Below are positions 34,828-39,879 of a stretch of 40,950 nt of DNA, one piece after another. The number at the start of each line of letters is the position of its first letter. Position 1 is the first letter of the stretch. The DNA is from Lachnospiraceae bacterium (GTDB lineage: Bacteria > Bacillota > Clostridia > Lachnospirales > Lachnospiraceae), in contig JAEELW010000070.1 in assembly GCA_016282915.1 (NCBI GenBank), positions 1-40,950 on the forward strand, in the 5' to 3' direction. A program made the position numbers and the translations under genes. A model generated the notes under the pieces. That model worked only from the letters and a program-made list of their open reading frames with translations, ran no database searches and was not told the DNA's origin.

Positions 34828-35718
34828 TCAGCTTTCGAAGTCACGGCAGAAGAGCCGGGCGGGGCGGTGGCCGGGGCCGGTAATGTATTTTTCCGTTTCC
34901 CGGACGAAGGGCTGCATCTTACGGCGGAAATTCGCAGTGAGGAGCGGCCGGTTTAAGACGATCTCGTAAACCTTCTGCAGCTGGTTGAGCGTAAAGTGTT
35001 CCGGCAGCAGGTAAAAGAGGACCGGACTGCTCAGTTCGGCTTCACGGCGCAGCTTAAGGAAGGCTTTAAGGATGATCAGGGCGTGGTCGAAAGCAAAGCC
35101 CTCGTTGTTTAAGATCTGATAGGAATGCGTTTCTTTTCTCGCATCGCAGCGGCAGTTTTCGCGGATGACGGCGGAGAGAACGCATTCTTCTTTGTTTTCC
35201 AGAAGGATACGGTAAGTGCGCTCGCTTGAGGCAGCTTGCGCATCCGCTTTTTTGCTTTCCTCATTTTCTTCTATCCGGAAATCGAACCAGGCGGCCTTCC
35301 AGGCATCGCTGCCTGCGTGGAGCCGGTAATCCGCGGGATCGATCAGTGATAGAAAGGCCTGGGAGACGATCCAGCCGCGGGGATCCCGTCCCCGTTCGCT
35401 GAACATGCCGACGGGTTCGAGATAGGCTTCCGACACATTGGTCTCTTCTTTAAGCTCCCGCGAGGCAGTCTCATCTATGCTTTCATTCTCCCGGCAGAAG
35501 CCGCCGGGGAGCGCCCACAGGCCTTTATACGGATGGCCGCCGCGCTGTATCATCAAAAGCTTCAGCTTGTTCTCCGGATCGCGCCGGTATGTATCGCCTT
35601 CCTCCTGCATCAGGGAGAAAACGGCGATATCGGCAGTCAGCGAGGGCGCCGGCCAGGCGCTGCGGTCATAGTTCTTCAGAAATTCCTTTTCCTCTTTTTT
35701 GCTTGATCCTGAGTTCAT
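34828..35718 (-). CDS. Nudix hydrolase / winged-helix protein, NrtR type
   Basis: The 296-residue protein has an N-terminal Nudix domain and a C-terminal winged helix. The Nudix box GGFCRENESIDETASRELKEETNV (72-95) keeps the REL.EE catalytic core; the usual Gly after EE is Asn. The C-terminal PEHFTLNQLQKVYEIVLNRP...NFRRKM (239-268) is the helix-turn-helix signature of the NrtR family, whose known members bind ADP-ribose and repress NAD genes. An insert of about 50 residues between the domains is rich in Lys, Glu and Ala. It lies 176 bases after the PurA-like gene on the same strand, with AAAGGTG as ribosome binding site. No NAD gene is nearby, so it may instead answer to the product of the PurA-like enzyme (inference). 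Confidence 0.85.
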   Translation of the reverse strand: MNSGSSKKEEKEFLKNYDRSAWPAPSLTADIAVFSLMQEEGDTYRRDPENKLKLLMIQRGGHPYKGLWALPGGFCRENESIDETASRELKEETNVSEAYLEPVGMFSERGRDPRGWIVSQAFLSLIDPADYRLHAGSDAWKAAWFDFRIEENEESKKADAQAASSERTYRILLENKEECVLSAVIRENCRCDARKETHSYQILNNEGFAFDHALIILKAFLKLRREAELSSPVLFYLLPEHFTLNQLQKVYEIVLNRPLLTANFRRKMQPFVRETEKYITGPGHRPARLFCRDFES

Positions 35719-35894
35719 ATCGGCTGCACCTTTATCTGTGGTTATATATCCTGTGATATCTTGAGAAACGGCTCTTCGTCATGGCGTCGGAGCGTCGGAC
35801 CGGAACCGGAGAGCTGTCATCGCTTACAGTTTATAATGTACGTATTCATTTTTCAAGTCCCGGGGACAGGGCTCCGCTTAAAGCTATGGGCGCT

Positions 35895-37100
35895 TCAGTA
35901 CGGTGAACCCTGTCGTGTGTCTTTTGCTTCACGTGACGCGGACAGATAGAAGCGGCCGAAGGTCTCTTTGATCTCGGGCAGCCGGCAGAAACGCGCCACA
36001 TCGATATCGCCTCCGGCACAGAGGATACGGCCGTGGCTTTCGTTTAAATGGGTAAGGAACAGGGTAGCGGTCCGGGGCTCTATGCCGGCAGCGTCCAGGT
36101 CTTCCCTGACGGGGCGGACGAAATCCGCGGCACTGCCGTGGCGGGCAAAACGCAGGCTGCCCTGCCAGGGGTTGGGGATATTTGTTTTGTCTTTTTCAAT
36201 GAGGCCCAGATCCCTGTCACTGCATTCGTTTGCCAGCGGGCCGGCACCGTGTTTGGTCACATAGCTGCGGCTGATGTAAACGGGCTCGGGGAGCGGCAGA
36301 TGATACTTTTTTGCGAGCATGCAGGGATTGGTCAGTCCCGTCCGGGAGCCGGTCACATGGGGGAGCGAAGCCTTGCAGCAGGCATCCAGCAAAAGTCCCT
36401 GGCCGTTTTCAAATATGATATCCTCCCTCTTTTGCAGGAAGCTTTCGCTATCTTCAACGATGCTGATCCGGGCCGCATTCCGCATCATCTGCTCCACGGC
36501 GTTTTCGATCACGGCATCGGAACGCAGCAAGTCGCCGTATTCCCCGGAAGGCGCCGGCAGCCCGGCCCGCTCAAGACGGGCCGGAAGATATTCGCAGCGG
36601 ATCTCCGTGAGTTTCTTTACCAGATGATCGGCGCTTTTGGAGAGGAAATCGGCAGCGCACACGCCGAAACCGGCTTTCGTGCGCAGATCGGCTTCGTAGA
36701 TCCCCATGCCGCAGCTGCCGTGTCTTTTGTTTCCGCGGGCGGTCTCCAGAGCCATATTGGTGAGCACGTCATCGATCAGGACGACCGGAGTGCTGCTGTC
36801 GCAGAAGATGCGCACGTCACCACCGCCGGCAAGGCGGAAAGCGTCGATCTCGTCCTGCAGTTTATAGAGGTCCGGATAGAAGGTCTCTGCCCAGAAGGTA
36901 TCGGCACCGCGGAAGGAGCCGGAGCCCAGCTGGTGGAAGACAAAGCGTTTTTCGCCGCACTCCACCGTATGTCCGGACTGGGCCCCGCCGTTGTGCCGGA
37001 TCACCAGAGGGGCATCGCCCCTCTGGCAGAAAAGATCCACGGCAAGTCCTTTTCCTTCGTCTCCGTATCCTTTTCCGATGATCGCATATACTTTGGTCAT
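35895..37100 (-). CDS. divergent adenylosuccinate synthetase homologue
   Basis: The 401-residue protein is clearly of the PurA fold but shorter than the usual ~425-430. It keeps the P-loop GYGDEGKG with Asp14 and the QSGHTV loop with His44, the counterparts of the catalytic Asp13 and His41 of E. coli PurA, and also FENGQGLLLD and VTKHGAGP. It loses the conserved aspartate/IMP loop TTGRRRR, which reads NPWQGSLRF (about 310-318), and the guanine-recognition TKLD, which reads THLN (350-353). It therefore probably joins a different acceptor or nucleotide, or uses another triphosphate. It starts 2 bases after the vWA gene, so it is not an ordinary housekeeping purA. Whether a true purA exists elsewhere cannot be seen here. 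Confidence 0.82.
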   Translation of the reverse strand: MTKVYAIIGKGYGDEGKGLAVDLFCQRGDAPLVIRHNGGAQSGHTVECGEKRFVFHQLGSGSFRGADTFWAETFYPDLYKLQDEIDAFRLAGGGDVRIFCDSSTPVVLIDDVLTNMALETARGNKRHGSCGMGIYEADLRTKAGFGVCAADFLSKSADHLVKKLTEIRCEYLPARLERAGLPAPSGEYGDLLRSDAVIENAVEQMMRNAARISIVEDSESFLQKREDIIFENGQGLLLDACCKASLPHVTGSRTGLTNPCMLAKKYHLPLPEPVYISRSYVTKHGAGPLANECSDRDLGLIEKDKTNIPNPWQGSLRFARHGSAADFVRPVREDLDAAGIEPRTATLFLTHLNESHGRILCAGGDIDVARFCRLPEIKETFGRFYLSASREAKDTRQGSPY

Positions 37101-37102
37101 AG

Positions 37103-37996
37103 TCAGAAAAACAATCCTTTCTTTGCACCGGGCAGTTTCAGTTCCCGCAGCGCGGAATCAATGACCGGCTGCTTATCATCCGGCCATTGGCGGATGATGT
37201 CATTTTGTTTCATGCCGTTCGTATACTGCATGATGCTGATGATGAGCTCGGGGATGGTATCGACCCGCTGGGGCGACAGCATCACATTGCGGCCGGATAA
37301 AAGCTGTACAAAATCGTTCGCACGATCCCCCGGGTTGTTGACCAGAAAGATGTGGAAGATCTCGAATTTTTCCGAGGCTTTTTTCAGTATGCTTTTCGTA
37401 TCGCAGTTCAGCGTTTCATTAAAGACACGATTAAAGGAAGCTTCGATCCCGACGGTGCGGCAGTCCGCTCCGTCACCGATCGTGAACAGGAAGCCTTTTT
37501 TGCCGCGCTTTTGCTGTGCATCCAGAAGCGTATGTTCCGCGGCAAAGTGCCACAGATAATTGGGGACCACGTCTCCGTTGCCTGCGTTTTCCAGCCACAG
37601 ATCAAAGAGCTGTTCGGCAATACGGATATCCGACTCGAACTGTGTGACCTGCAGGGGGGCCTGGTCCTGGAAATCCCCGTAGGCGGCAAACAGTATTGCG
37701 GGATCGGGGACCGGCTGCAGCGAGTAGAGTTTCATCATGGTCTCGTGCAGGGATTCCTTTGCGATCTGCTTCGACAGGTATCCCATGGAACCGGTCACGT
37801 CCAGACCGATGATGATGGGGGTGGATTCGGGATGATCCTCGGAATCCCTGGCCTCCCTGAAGCTGATGAAGCGGGGATCGAAGCGCTGGTCGATCTGCCT
37901 GCGCCGAAAGATCTCCCTTTCACTTGTGGCAGTGCCGATGTTGCGGCTGCTTTTTAAGCGGCTCCAGTCCGATGCGTTGTAACTTCCTCTTCCCAT
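37103..37996 (-). CDS. vWA-domain protein with intact MIDAS
   Basis: The 297-residue cytoplasmic protein has a basic N-terminal stretch (about 1-55) and a von Willebrand A domain (about 58-260). The metal-ion-dependent adhesion site DVTGS (Asp66, Thr68, Ser70) is complete, and later strands carry FAAYGDFQD and TIGDGAD, which could supply the remaining ligands. Intracellular vWA proteins in bacteria usually act as metal-dependent assembly partners of kinases, AAA+ proteins or stress systems such as TerY. Here the partners would be the pseudokinase-like protein encoded 15 bases upstream and the PurA-like enzyme 2 bases downstream. AGGAGG precedes the ATG. Confidence 0.85.
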   Translation of the reverse strand: MGRGSYNASDWSRLKSSRNIGTATSEREIFRRRQIDQRFDPRFISFREARDSEDHPESTPIIIGLDVTGSMGYLSKQIAKESLHETMMKLYSLQPVPDPAILFAAYGDFQDQAPLQVTQFESDIRIAEQLFDLWLENAGNGDVVPNYLWHFAAEHTLLDAQQKRGKKGFLFTIGDGADCRTVGIEASFNRVFNETLNCDTKSILKKASEKFEIFHIFLVNNPGDRANDFVQLLSGRNVMLSPQRVDTIPELIISIMQYTNGMKQNDIIRQWPDDKQPVIDSALRELKLPGAKKGLFF

Positions 37997-38011
37997 AATA
38001 TTTTCCTCCTT

Positions 38012-38917
38012 TCAGATTTGAATGTTCGTTTTTGCAAAGCGGCGTCCGCCAAAGCCTTTTTCGATCACCTCATCCCAGAGAGCAAAGTCGTCATAGGCAT
38101 TTCTCTTCGGTGCGGAGTTCAGAAAAGCGGTGAATTCCTTCGGGATCCCGCTGCGGTTCACACCCAGGATACGCGAAGCCGTGGAACGGACAGCCTTCAG
38201 ATCTCCGGCGGAACCTTCGGAAGCGTATCCCGCCTCCCACCAGTGACCGATCAGTACGGCGTGGTGGGTGAAGGGGTCGACCGCCAGGCTGTTTTCCGAG
38301 ATACCGTTGTGGGCCAGGTCGCTGTAGGCCAGTACGCAGCAGATGTTCTCCATACGCGAGACCACCCATGCGGCATGTTCCGCGGAGAGAGCACCGAGGA
38401 GAGGCAGGGGGAACAGATTGCCTGCTCTCCTGTAGGCCAGCAGCAGTCCGCCGTTTTCCAGGAGGTAACTGCCGGCAGCGACCGGAAAGCAGTCACGCAG
38501 GCCTTTCATATCGGCGGGGGGGAAGGAGAGCCGCTGCAGGGCTCGTTCCTGGGCTTCCGCCAGCGCCCGCGCTTCTTTCTTAAAATGAAAGAGAAAGGCT
38601 TCGCGGGTCAGGTACATGGTGACGGAAGGACCGTCGTCACAGCGGTAGAGGTAACGGATCGTGATATCGTTATCGTCCGCGCTTTTCAGATACGCATATT
38701 CCGCGGAATGCCAGAGCGCATCTTCATTTCTTACTTCCTCCGCTTTCCGTTCGTGTGTCTCACGGAGGTAGCGGAGCATCCGGCCGCGGAATTCTTTATA
38801 TCCGCGCAGCTGCTCATCGGAGAAATGAAAGCGGCTGCCGCAGTATTCGCAATACAGCGCCCCGCTACTGTCAACGGAGAGCTCGCCGTTACAGTTTTCA
38901 CATTTGAAGCTCAGCAT
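38012..38917 (-). CDS. zinc-ribbon protein with pseudokinase-like domain
   Basis: The 301-residue protein starts at the ATG at 38915-38917 with AGAGGA before it; the frame extends upstream but across the promoter. A zinc ribbon (CENCNG ... CEYCGS, about 5-27) is followed by a helical linker and then by a region that follows the plan of a protein kinase fold: a possible alpha-C helix (FHFKKEARALAEAQ), then DLAHNGISENSLAVDPFTHHAVLIGHWW (about 200-227). The last segment aligns in pattern with the HxD..N catalytic loop and DFG strand of kinases, but the catalytic Asp and the DFG Asp are both absent. It should be a non-catalytic kinase relative. It heads the operon with the vWA and PurA-like genes. 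The kinase assignment is motif-based and moderate. Confidence 0.65.
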   Translation of the reverse strand: MLSFKCENCNGELSVDSSGALYCEYCGSRFHFSDEQLRGYKEFRGRMLRYLRETHERKAEEVRNEDALWHSAEYAYLKSADDNDITIRYLYRCDDGPSVTMYLTREAFLFHFKKEARALAEAQERALQRLSFPPADMKGLRDCFPVAAGSYLLENGGLLLAYRRAGNLFPLPLLGALSAEHAAWVVSRMENICCVLAYSDLAHNGISENSLAVDPFTHHAVLIGHWWEAGYASEGSAGDLKAVRSTASRILGVNRSGIPKEFTAFLNSAPKRNAYDDFALWDEVIEKGFGGRRFAKTNIQI

Positions 38918-38969
38918 TTGTCGCGTCCTCTCTTTCGATCGGGATTGATGATGTCTTGTTGCGAATATA

Positions 38970-38998
38970 ATGATAATATCAAATCGATAATATGTCAA
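38970..38998 (-). promoter_or_regulatory. promoter of operon B
   Basis: On the minus strand a perfect TTGACA (38993-38998) and TATCAT (38970-38975) are 17 bases apart, about 53 bases before the zinc-ribbon start. Between 38999 and 39090 only an A-rich run on the minus strand is seen and no gene. Confidence 0.75.
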
Positions 38999-39837: not shown

Positions 39838-39879
39838 TTAGCACTCGGGCTTGACGAGTGCTAACAAGAGTGCTATAGT
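39838..39879 (+). promoter_or_regulatory. CIRCE operator and clpB promoter
   Basis: TTAGCACTC (39838-39846), nine bases, GAGTGCTAA (39856-39864): a perfect CIRCE element, the HrcA repressor site. TTGACG (39851-39856) inside it and an extended -10 TGC-TATAGT (39871-39879) are 17 bases apart, so HrcA would cover the -35 box and release it on heat stress. Confidence 0.95.

Follow-up and report, generated by a model that had tools for sequence, protein, structure and literature searches.

A mostly phage-borne triad of kinase-like, vWA and PurA-like genes lies behind an operator shared with NAD-salvage genes in a Lachnospiraceae genus

In the 40,950-nucleotide (nt) stretch of Lachnospiraceae DNA analysed here (contig JAEELW010000070.1 of GenBank assembly GCA_016282915.1; the whole stretch is called the window), the genes for a kinase-like protein, a von Willebrand factor A (vWA) protein and a relative of adenylosuccinate synthetase (PurA) form a conserved, mostly phage-borne triad, which in ten genomes of the genus stands behind an operator that is shared with genes for the salvage of nicotinamide adenine dinucleotide (NAD). 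We interpret the triad as a phage-derived three-protein module under the control of NAD status that would act as a nucleotide-modifying complex, and assign to this interpretation a probability of about 0.5.

Four genes follow one another on the minus strand in the order zinc-ribbon pseudokinase, vWA, PurA-like and Nudix-winged-helix, separated by 15 nt (pseudokinase to vWA), 2 nt (vWA to PurA-like) and 176 nt (PurA-like to Nudix). These identities, together with a strong promoter ahead of the genes, had been claimed in an earlier reading of the window (the original prediction) and were confirmed as follows:

38970..38998, minus strand: sigma-70-type promoter of the triad, TTGACA-17-TATCAT, with 11/12 consensus matches
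38974..38992, no strand assigned: palindromic operator TATTATC-GATTT-GATATTA in the -35/-10 spacer, a proposed NrtR-type site (its loose form matches once in the window and in 0/100 shuffles)
38012..38917, minus strand: zinc-ribbon pseudokinase, 301 amino acids (aa), with CxxC...CxxC at residues 6-26, a kinase fold at residues 74-286 and the catalytic Asp lost
38840..38902, minus strand: zinc ribbon Cys6, Cys9, Cys23, Cys26, read from the sequence; most phage relatives have a J domain at the same place
37103..37996, minus strand: vWA protein with the metal-ion-dependent adhesion site (MIDAS) motif D66-V-T-G-S70 and conserved Met1-Gly2 (alignment, AlphaFold model)
35895..37100, minus strand: PurA-like ligase with catalytic Asp/Lys/His kept and the sites for the phosphate of inosine monophosphate (IMP) and for aspartate replaced (PF00709 match, alignment)
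34828..35718, minus strand: NrtR-type Nudix-winged-helix regulator with the Nudix box GX5EX7RELKEE intact (NrtR_WHD 66.7 bits, residues 235-290)

The stretch contains five promoter-like sites against a shuffle mean of 2.1, the other four scoring only 9/12.

A tblastn search of 50,697 phage records revealed PurA-like matches in 221 and vWA matches in 206. From the 40 matches listed for each query, four phages were examined for gene neighbourhood; the two genes are adjacent in Vibrio phage Va1, Rhizobium phage RHph_Y65 and one faecal phage, and the annotated order in Mycobacterium phage Pleione is kinase, vWA, small gene, PurA, placing vWA and PurA one small gene apart. By a profile scan of IMG/VR, vWA relatives were detected in 323 viral contigs, and the viral-locus counts given here rest on the best 80 of these. 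A same-strand PurA-like gene was found near vWA in 76 of the 80 loci, with a gap of at most 150 bp in 49/80; this co-occurrence, along with neighbours that are kept in bacteria too, bears out the conserved unit that had been claimed. The loci without a PurA-like gene are L045, L050, L112 and L113, and the DNA of the last two ends 9 and 2002 nt past vWA, respectively. A kinase-like gene lies nearby, mostly just upstream, in 40 of the 80 loci and a small protein of ~200 aa, for which no Pfam or PHROG match above noise was obtained, in 11, with neither present in 29 and both in none; the chance of this zero co-occurrence is 2e-4 if the two genes are independent, which related phages are not. In loci L105, L106, L107, L108, L119 and L120, a conserved gene of ~125 aa directly precedes vWA in place of the kinase-like or small protein and is a possible third type of partner.

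Among 60 relatives of the window genome, vWA was present in 16, all within the 35 genomes of the genus, and among 398 genomes drawn from the phylum it was present in one, namely the window's own. The layout in the genus is of the window type, with the zinc-ribbon pseudokinase, in six genomes (in G025 the contig ends inside vWA), includes a J-domain kinase-like protein in one (G024) and has the small protein instead in nine (type B). The vWA gene was also found in 21 of 72,556 plasmids. Nine of these 21 records, from eight genera and other phyla, were fetched, and the kinase-like/vWA/PurA-like triad is complete in seven of the nine loci. The kinase-like or, instead, the small protein gene with vWA and PurA-like is a conserved gene unit in phages and bacteria, and the triad is mainly phage cargo.

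Phylogenetic analysis (FastTree local supports, plasmid copies outside the tree) separated the PurA-like family from PurA and from PurZ, the 2-aminoadenylosuccinate synthetase of Z-DNA phages, with a support of 0.95. The bacterial copies were placed inside the phage part on two clear branches, the window type with phage L047 (0.997) and type B (1.0). Phage L047, the sister of the window type, likewise has a zinc-ribbon pseudokinase, and the type B branch lies near phages that likewise have the small protein. The copy of G024 stands beside type B, its separateness hanging on a weak node (0.47). Given these supports, bacteria appear to have captured the module at least twice, on at least two separate branches.

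The link to NAD metabolism comes from the operator. The triad promoters of the window and of nine sister genomes (type B) contain the palindrome TATTATC-N5-GATAATA, which also precedes NAD-salvage operons; in the window and all nine type-B loci TTGACATATTATC-N5-GATWATATGAT or a close variant upstream of the triad fills the promoter spacer. A search of the whole window genome with the loose form returned six matches, four of which are taken as chance because they are inside open reading frames (ORFs); the remaining two are promoter sites, one of the triad and one of a radical-SAM/Nudix fusion gene. This fusion gene (L149:5526-7433 on contig C91 of G000) has the same palindrome in its promoter, and similar radical-SAM genes adjoin Nudix in G025 and G028.

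The strict promoter-operator pattern was found in 12 of the 35 genus genomes, with the reversed control giving 0 in all 35, and in 1/299 phylum genomes, which was the window's own. Besides the window genome, these are the nine type-B genomes and two, G004 and G017, in which Nudix and operator occur but the triad does not; a Nudix-winged-helix relative of near full length and ≥45% identity is present in all 12. In G025, a Nudix gene (48%) is accompanied by a looser site near its start, which lies before nrtR if an inner start is used. That all 12 operator genomes fall within the 13/35 Nudix genomes has a hypergeometric p of 1.6e-8, and a close Nudix orthologue (≥50% identity) was present in 10 of the 35 genomes, all of them triad carriers, and in 0/19 without the triad (Fisher p 4e-5), both p-values overstating independence, as sister genomes share ancestry.

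Ten of the 14 strict sites stand before triads; the others precede pnuC-nadR in G032, pncA-prs-NAMPT-nadE-nrtR in G017 and a Band-7 gene, an unknown gene and nrtR in G004, and the last lies at a contig end in G032. Relaxed sites were found before pncA-pncB in G032 and G018 and before nrtR in G018. The operator is thus shared with NAD-metabolism genes in the sister genomes G017, G018 and G032. Only the strict promoter-embedded pattern was used for counts because the relaxed operator (one mismatch) proved not to be specific, the matches per genome being similar in 16 genomes without the strict operator and in 13 with strict operator or Nudix. Eight relaxed sites, mostly with AT-rich centres, were fetched, of which two lie before pncA-pncB and six beside nothing matching nine reference proteins. 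Palindromes were also read before the plasmid triads, namely TTTTAGTC-N5-GACTAAAA and TTTCTAGTC-N5-GACTAGAAA in Actinobacteria and TTAGAC-N9-GTCTAA in Alphaproteobacteria.

The NAD operon of G017 (L147:6358-10959) comprises pncA, Prs-like, NAMPT-like, nadE and nrtR genes, and its Prs-like and NAMPT-like pair presumably resembles the pair of the phage NARP1 pathway. The operator-controlled nrtR operon of G004 is headed by the Band-7 gene (L146:3882-4958); SPFH/Band-7-like genes, recognised by eye and not by Pfam, also occur near the triad in phage loci L045, L050, L056 and L101. The gene before nrtR in G004 had the look of a NAD kinase by eye, an assignment that was dropped upon finding no Pfam match.

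The window Nudix protein combines a Nudix domain with NrtR_WHD, the domain make-up of an NrtR regulator. Its catalytic Nudix box is intact, as in the 7 tested type-B Nudix genes, and is not intact in the 5 tested plasmid ones. A Nudix gene lies beside the triad, or beside a triad remnant in Rhodovulum, in 7/9 plasmid loci; four of these seven genes had been used in building the profile, yet are also annotated NUDIX in their own records, and the gene of the Acetobacter persici plasmid is broken into two ORFs. The NrtR_WHD cut-off was exceeded in plasmid loci L178, L179, L181 and L184 but not reached in L180 and L182 (L186 lay outside the scan). With the operator in the triad promoter and the Nudix gene beside the plasmid triads, the view that a Nudix regulator belongs to the unit is supported. 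The original prediction had further suggested that this protein senses the product of the PurA-like enzyme; in the genus it is more likely an NrtR-type sensor of NAD or ADP-ribose shared with NAD-salvage operons than a sensor of that product. In M. smegmatis, according to passages of PMC6800001, NrtR acts on NAD synthesis as an auto-repressor, and its binding to DNA is disrupted by ADP-ribose. The unit shares with NrtR regulators the Nudix and NrtR_WHD domains, the palindrome before NAD genes and the adjacency of relatives to NAD-salvage genes, but differs in that the site here also precedes the PurA-like/vWA/pseudokinase triad; the operator TATTATC-N5-GATAATA itself differs from the Mycobacterium and Streptococcus NrtR boxes given in those passages. 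The Nudix gene is itself preceded by a palindrome, at 35733-35758, which does not fit the operator pattern.

The neighbours of the phage triads were listed for 70 of the 80 viral loci by sequence clustering of the genes within six of the triad. NAMPT and/or NadM-Nudix genes were found in 8/70 loci, NAMPT-type genes in L051, L054, L061, L063, L079 and L084 and NadM-Nudix genes in L051, L054, L079, L084, L095 and L098; a Pfam check of six of these twelve genes agreed in all cases. As this proximity has no matched control, it is suggestive only. In G013 of the genus, NadR-, PnuC- and NrtR-type genes adjoin the triad on the other strand. Like the NARP1 system of phage NAD+ reconstitution, the triad is phage-borne and possibly NAD-linked, and the G017 operon behind the same operator has Prs-like and NAMPT-like genes; unlike NARP1, as described in PMC12774641, the triad is without Adps or Namat.

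The PurA-like protein of the window matches PF00709 at 108 bits (cut-off 27) but misses the cut-off of the PurA equivalog (88.7 bits against 402 needed). A canonical purA is present elsewhere in the window genome, apart from the PurA-like gene, so that the latter is not the sole purA, a condition under which, together with complementation of a purA mutant, the original prediction was to fail. A PF00709 match was found in 33/35 genus genomes. Of the 16 genus carriers, all but G021 (72% complete) have a further, canonical-kind PF00709 gene, intact or fragmented. In Asn38, Thr129 and Arg143 PurA has residues binding the IMP phosphate, and in TTGRRR its aspartate loop. An alignment of 95 PurA-like proteins, the window's included (some near-identical, 3 short fragments dropped), showed the catalytic D13, K16 and H41 to be retained in 95/95, Q224 in 94/95 and T239 in 93/95, and the P-loop GDEGKG and the fold are shared with PurA. 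By contrast, N38 is changed to Q in 91/95, T129 to C or V in 90/95 and V273 to H in 94/95, Lys140 is also replaced, and the TTGRRR loop is swapped in 94/95 for a motif with Q at the T301 position. The window protein has Q, C and G at Asn38, Thr129 and Arg143 and N-P-W-Q-G as aspartate loop. The altered substrate loops that had been claimed are thereby substantiated. Because the residues binding the IMP phosphate and aspartate are replaced while catalytic Asp13, Lys16 and His41 are kept, the protein looks active and probably works on substrates other than IMP and aspartate. Further differences from PurA are that it is a second copy beside canonical purA and is tied to vWA. The role of R303 in PurA was taken from passages of PMC8342488. 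At position D333, 68 of the 95 proteins have D and 25, including the window's, have N; according to the title of Kang 1994 (reference list of PMC7952092), D333N switches E. coli PurA from guanosine (GTP) to xanthosine triphosphate (XTP).

Two unusual frames were encountered in this family. An 840-aa phage ORF (L063:3403-5925) has an in-frame insert, intein-like by eye, between the catalytic His and the Thr of GHTV, and an insert in this active-site motif would be a sign of an active, conserved enzyme. In G014, the PurA-like frame continues into a flagellin-like gene (L027:3383-6232, 949 aa), which may be a fusion or a lost stop.

For the vWA and the kinase-like protein, neither a Pfam match above cut-off nor a PDB sequence match below E 0.5 was obtained; the latter was the reason for structure prediction. 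The AlphaFold models reached a predicted local distance difference test (pLDDT) score of 91 and 90, respectively, and PDB searches with them confirmed the vWA and the protein-kinase fold. In the 62 of 76 available vWA rows that were aligned, the MIDAS residues D66, T68, S70 and D175 are invariant; the protein of Rhizobium phage RHph_Y65, outside these rows, has Ser at T68. Of 103 loci, with GTG and TTG accepted as starts, 85 have Met-Gly at the first start codon of vWA and a further 17 have an inner Met-Gly that was picked by alignment; the last, L086, is truncated by the end of its contig. An intein in vWA may be present in Mycobacterium phages, as the vWA match overlaps an annotated HNH endonuclease in Quasimodo and Yassified and breaks off at residue 195 in many of their relatives.

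The kinase-like alignment (37 rows out of 40 at hand) revealed the HPD motif of a J domain in 31/37 and the double CxxC in 4/37, phage L047 among them. The HRD Asp is retained in 6/37 and the DFG Asp in 1/37, with G205 and G224 at these positions in the window protein, which is, by these substitutions, a pseudokinase.

From these data, we infer the following course of events. The Nudix-winged-helix protein would bind the operator and repress the triad until a rise in ADP-ribose or NAD turnover lifts the repression. Phosphoryl transfer by the PurA-like enzyme would then activate a purine nucleotide at its 6-oxo group, or a similar lactam, for amination by the same enzyme, the amine being something other than free aspartate. 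Neither the vWA protein nor the pseudokinase would be catalytic; they would act as scaffold or in delivery, and the J domain of the phage versions would recruit Hsp70. The module could serve to repair or salvage nucleotides in connection with the NAD economy, to the benefit of phages whose hosts deplete NAD in defence and of bacteria exposed to such stress.

Several observations weigh against this scheme. Co-regulation with NAD genes is no proof of the same pathway, and the PurA-like enzyme need not touch NAD itself. The operator stands before no NAD gene in the window genome, and the six triad carriers that are not of type B apart from the window genome (G013, G014, G021, G024, G025 and G033) are without the strict operator. 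Three of these (G014, G021, G033) have no match to the window Nudix protein at E ≤ 1e-10, and G013 and G024 have only weaker Nudix relatives beside the triad (119 and 70 bits). Besides the shared ancestry behind the p-values, some of the phages with NAD genes near the triad may be related, and the Alphaproteobacterial and Actinobacterial palindromes are by-eye reads without a control. Finally, according to PMC4666351, sugar regulators such as AraR also belong to the NrtR family.

A more far-reaching proposal, which we put forward tentatively, is that of a new NAD-linked purine-modifying complex, with which phages would repair or rebuild nucleotides when defences burn NAD and which bacteria would have captured at least twice under NrtR-type control. 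In its boldest form, the amine would be Gly2 of the vWA protein: the conserved glycine and the lost aspartate loop would allow the PurA-like enzyme to couple the vWA N-terminal glycine to the activated purine, yielding a protein-purine conjugate.

It is rather unlikely that the triad is a TerY-type anti-phage or general stress system, in which damage is sensed by the kinase-like and vWA proteins, and the Nudix protein reads a signal nucleotide synthesised by the PurA-like enzyme. A vWA gene beside a kinase relative is common to the triad and the TerY-P module, which we take to consist of vWA, kinase and PP2C phosphatase, and the patchy distribution (16/35 genus genomes against 1/398 phylum genomes) and the plasmid copies would fit. 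However, the kinase relative here is a pseudokinase with a J or zinc-ribbon head, which counts against a TerY-type link, and it comes with a PurA-like partner; no PP2C gene was recognised by eye among the recurrent neighbour clusters, no PP2C model having been run. Of the four proteins, only Nudix had PADLOC matches, and these were weak (25 bits to PDC-S07, 12 bits to PDC-M64C). Moreover, the triad is carried by phages themselves, and its operator is common to NAD-salvage genes. Neither the TerY-type stress link nor the defence role of the original prediction was therefore borne out.

We also consider it improbable that the triad is selfish or relic cargo, i.e. phage genes that were taken up on more than one occasion and retained behind any promoter close by, with a coincidental NAD operator. 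The two or more separate bacterial branches in the phage tree and the patchy presence would agree with this, but the frames are intact, the active site is conserved, and the operator occurs in two distinct triad types (the window and the nine type-B loci) and before three kinds of NAD-salvage operon.

A counter-measure to deamination is quite unlikely; here, the PurA-like enzyme would re-aminate inosine di- or triphosphate (IDP/ITP), deoxyinosine monophosphate (dIMP) or the hypoxanthine form of NAD made by host defences or stress. The 6-oxopurine chemistry kept in D13, H41, Q224 and T239, combined with a changed 5'-phosphate site that could fit more than one phosphate, is compatible with it, as are the frequency in phages and the NAD link. 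Yet no deaminase, adenylosuccinate lyase or nucleoside triphosphate pyrophosphatase was recognised by eye among the recurrent neighbour clusters, for which no model search was run, and the vWA and pseudokinase partners are left unexplained.

A DNA base modification of the PurZ kind, making a modified purine deoxynucleotide, is highly improbable: PurZ is likewise a phage paralogue of PurA, and the window protein matches PHROG 1211 ('2-aminooxy adenylosuccinate synthetase', a label on many phage genes) at 154 bits, but identity with PurZ was rejected on the Asp13 that is kept in 95/95 PurA-like proteins where phiVC8 PurZ has Ser, on a score of 19.9 against the cut-off of 300 of the PurZ model NF038379 and on the separate tree branch, and the canonical-kind PF00709 gene of 15/16 genus carriers also argues against it. 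Ser replaces Asp13 in 100% of 147 phage PurZ, as stated in passages of PMC12884076. The PurZ neighbours in phiVC8 are annotated as a phosphohydrolase, a hypothetical gene and an 'integrase', and none is called vWA (by annotation only, with no vWA profile search).

No description of the triad was found in the open-licence literature searched, and a term search of the jumbo-phage overview PMC7824862 gave neither 'adenylosuccinate' nor 'PurA'. The components belong to families already known, but in that literature neither the unit nor its NAD link appears to have been described. If the interpretation as an NAD-controlled nucleotide-modifying complex is true, a common phage unit, also present in several bacterial phyla and with a probably active enzyme, would constitute a new branch of nucleotide metabolism. 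The link to the NAD regulon gives a concrete handle on when the triad works, and its function could be tested via one promoter, one regulator and one enzyme. Should the triad serve phages in NAD-depleted hosts, it would bear directly on phage-host conflict. It is also suggested that the label '2-aminooxy adenylosuccinate synthetase' misleads.

Elsewhere in the window, a perfect TTAGCACTC-N9-GAGTGCTAA, which we take to be a CIRCE element, is located at 39838-39864, before a gene that is ClpB-like by eye and divergent from the triad.

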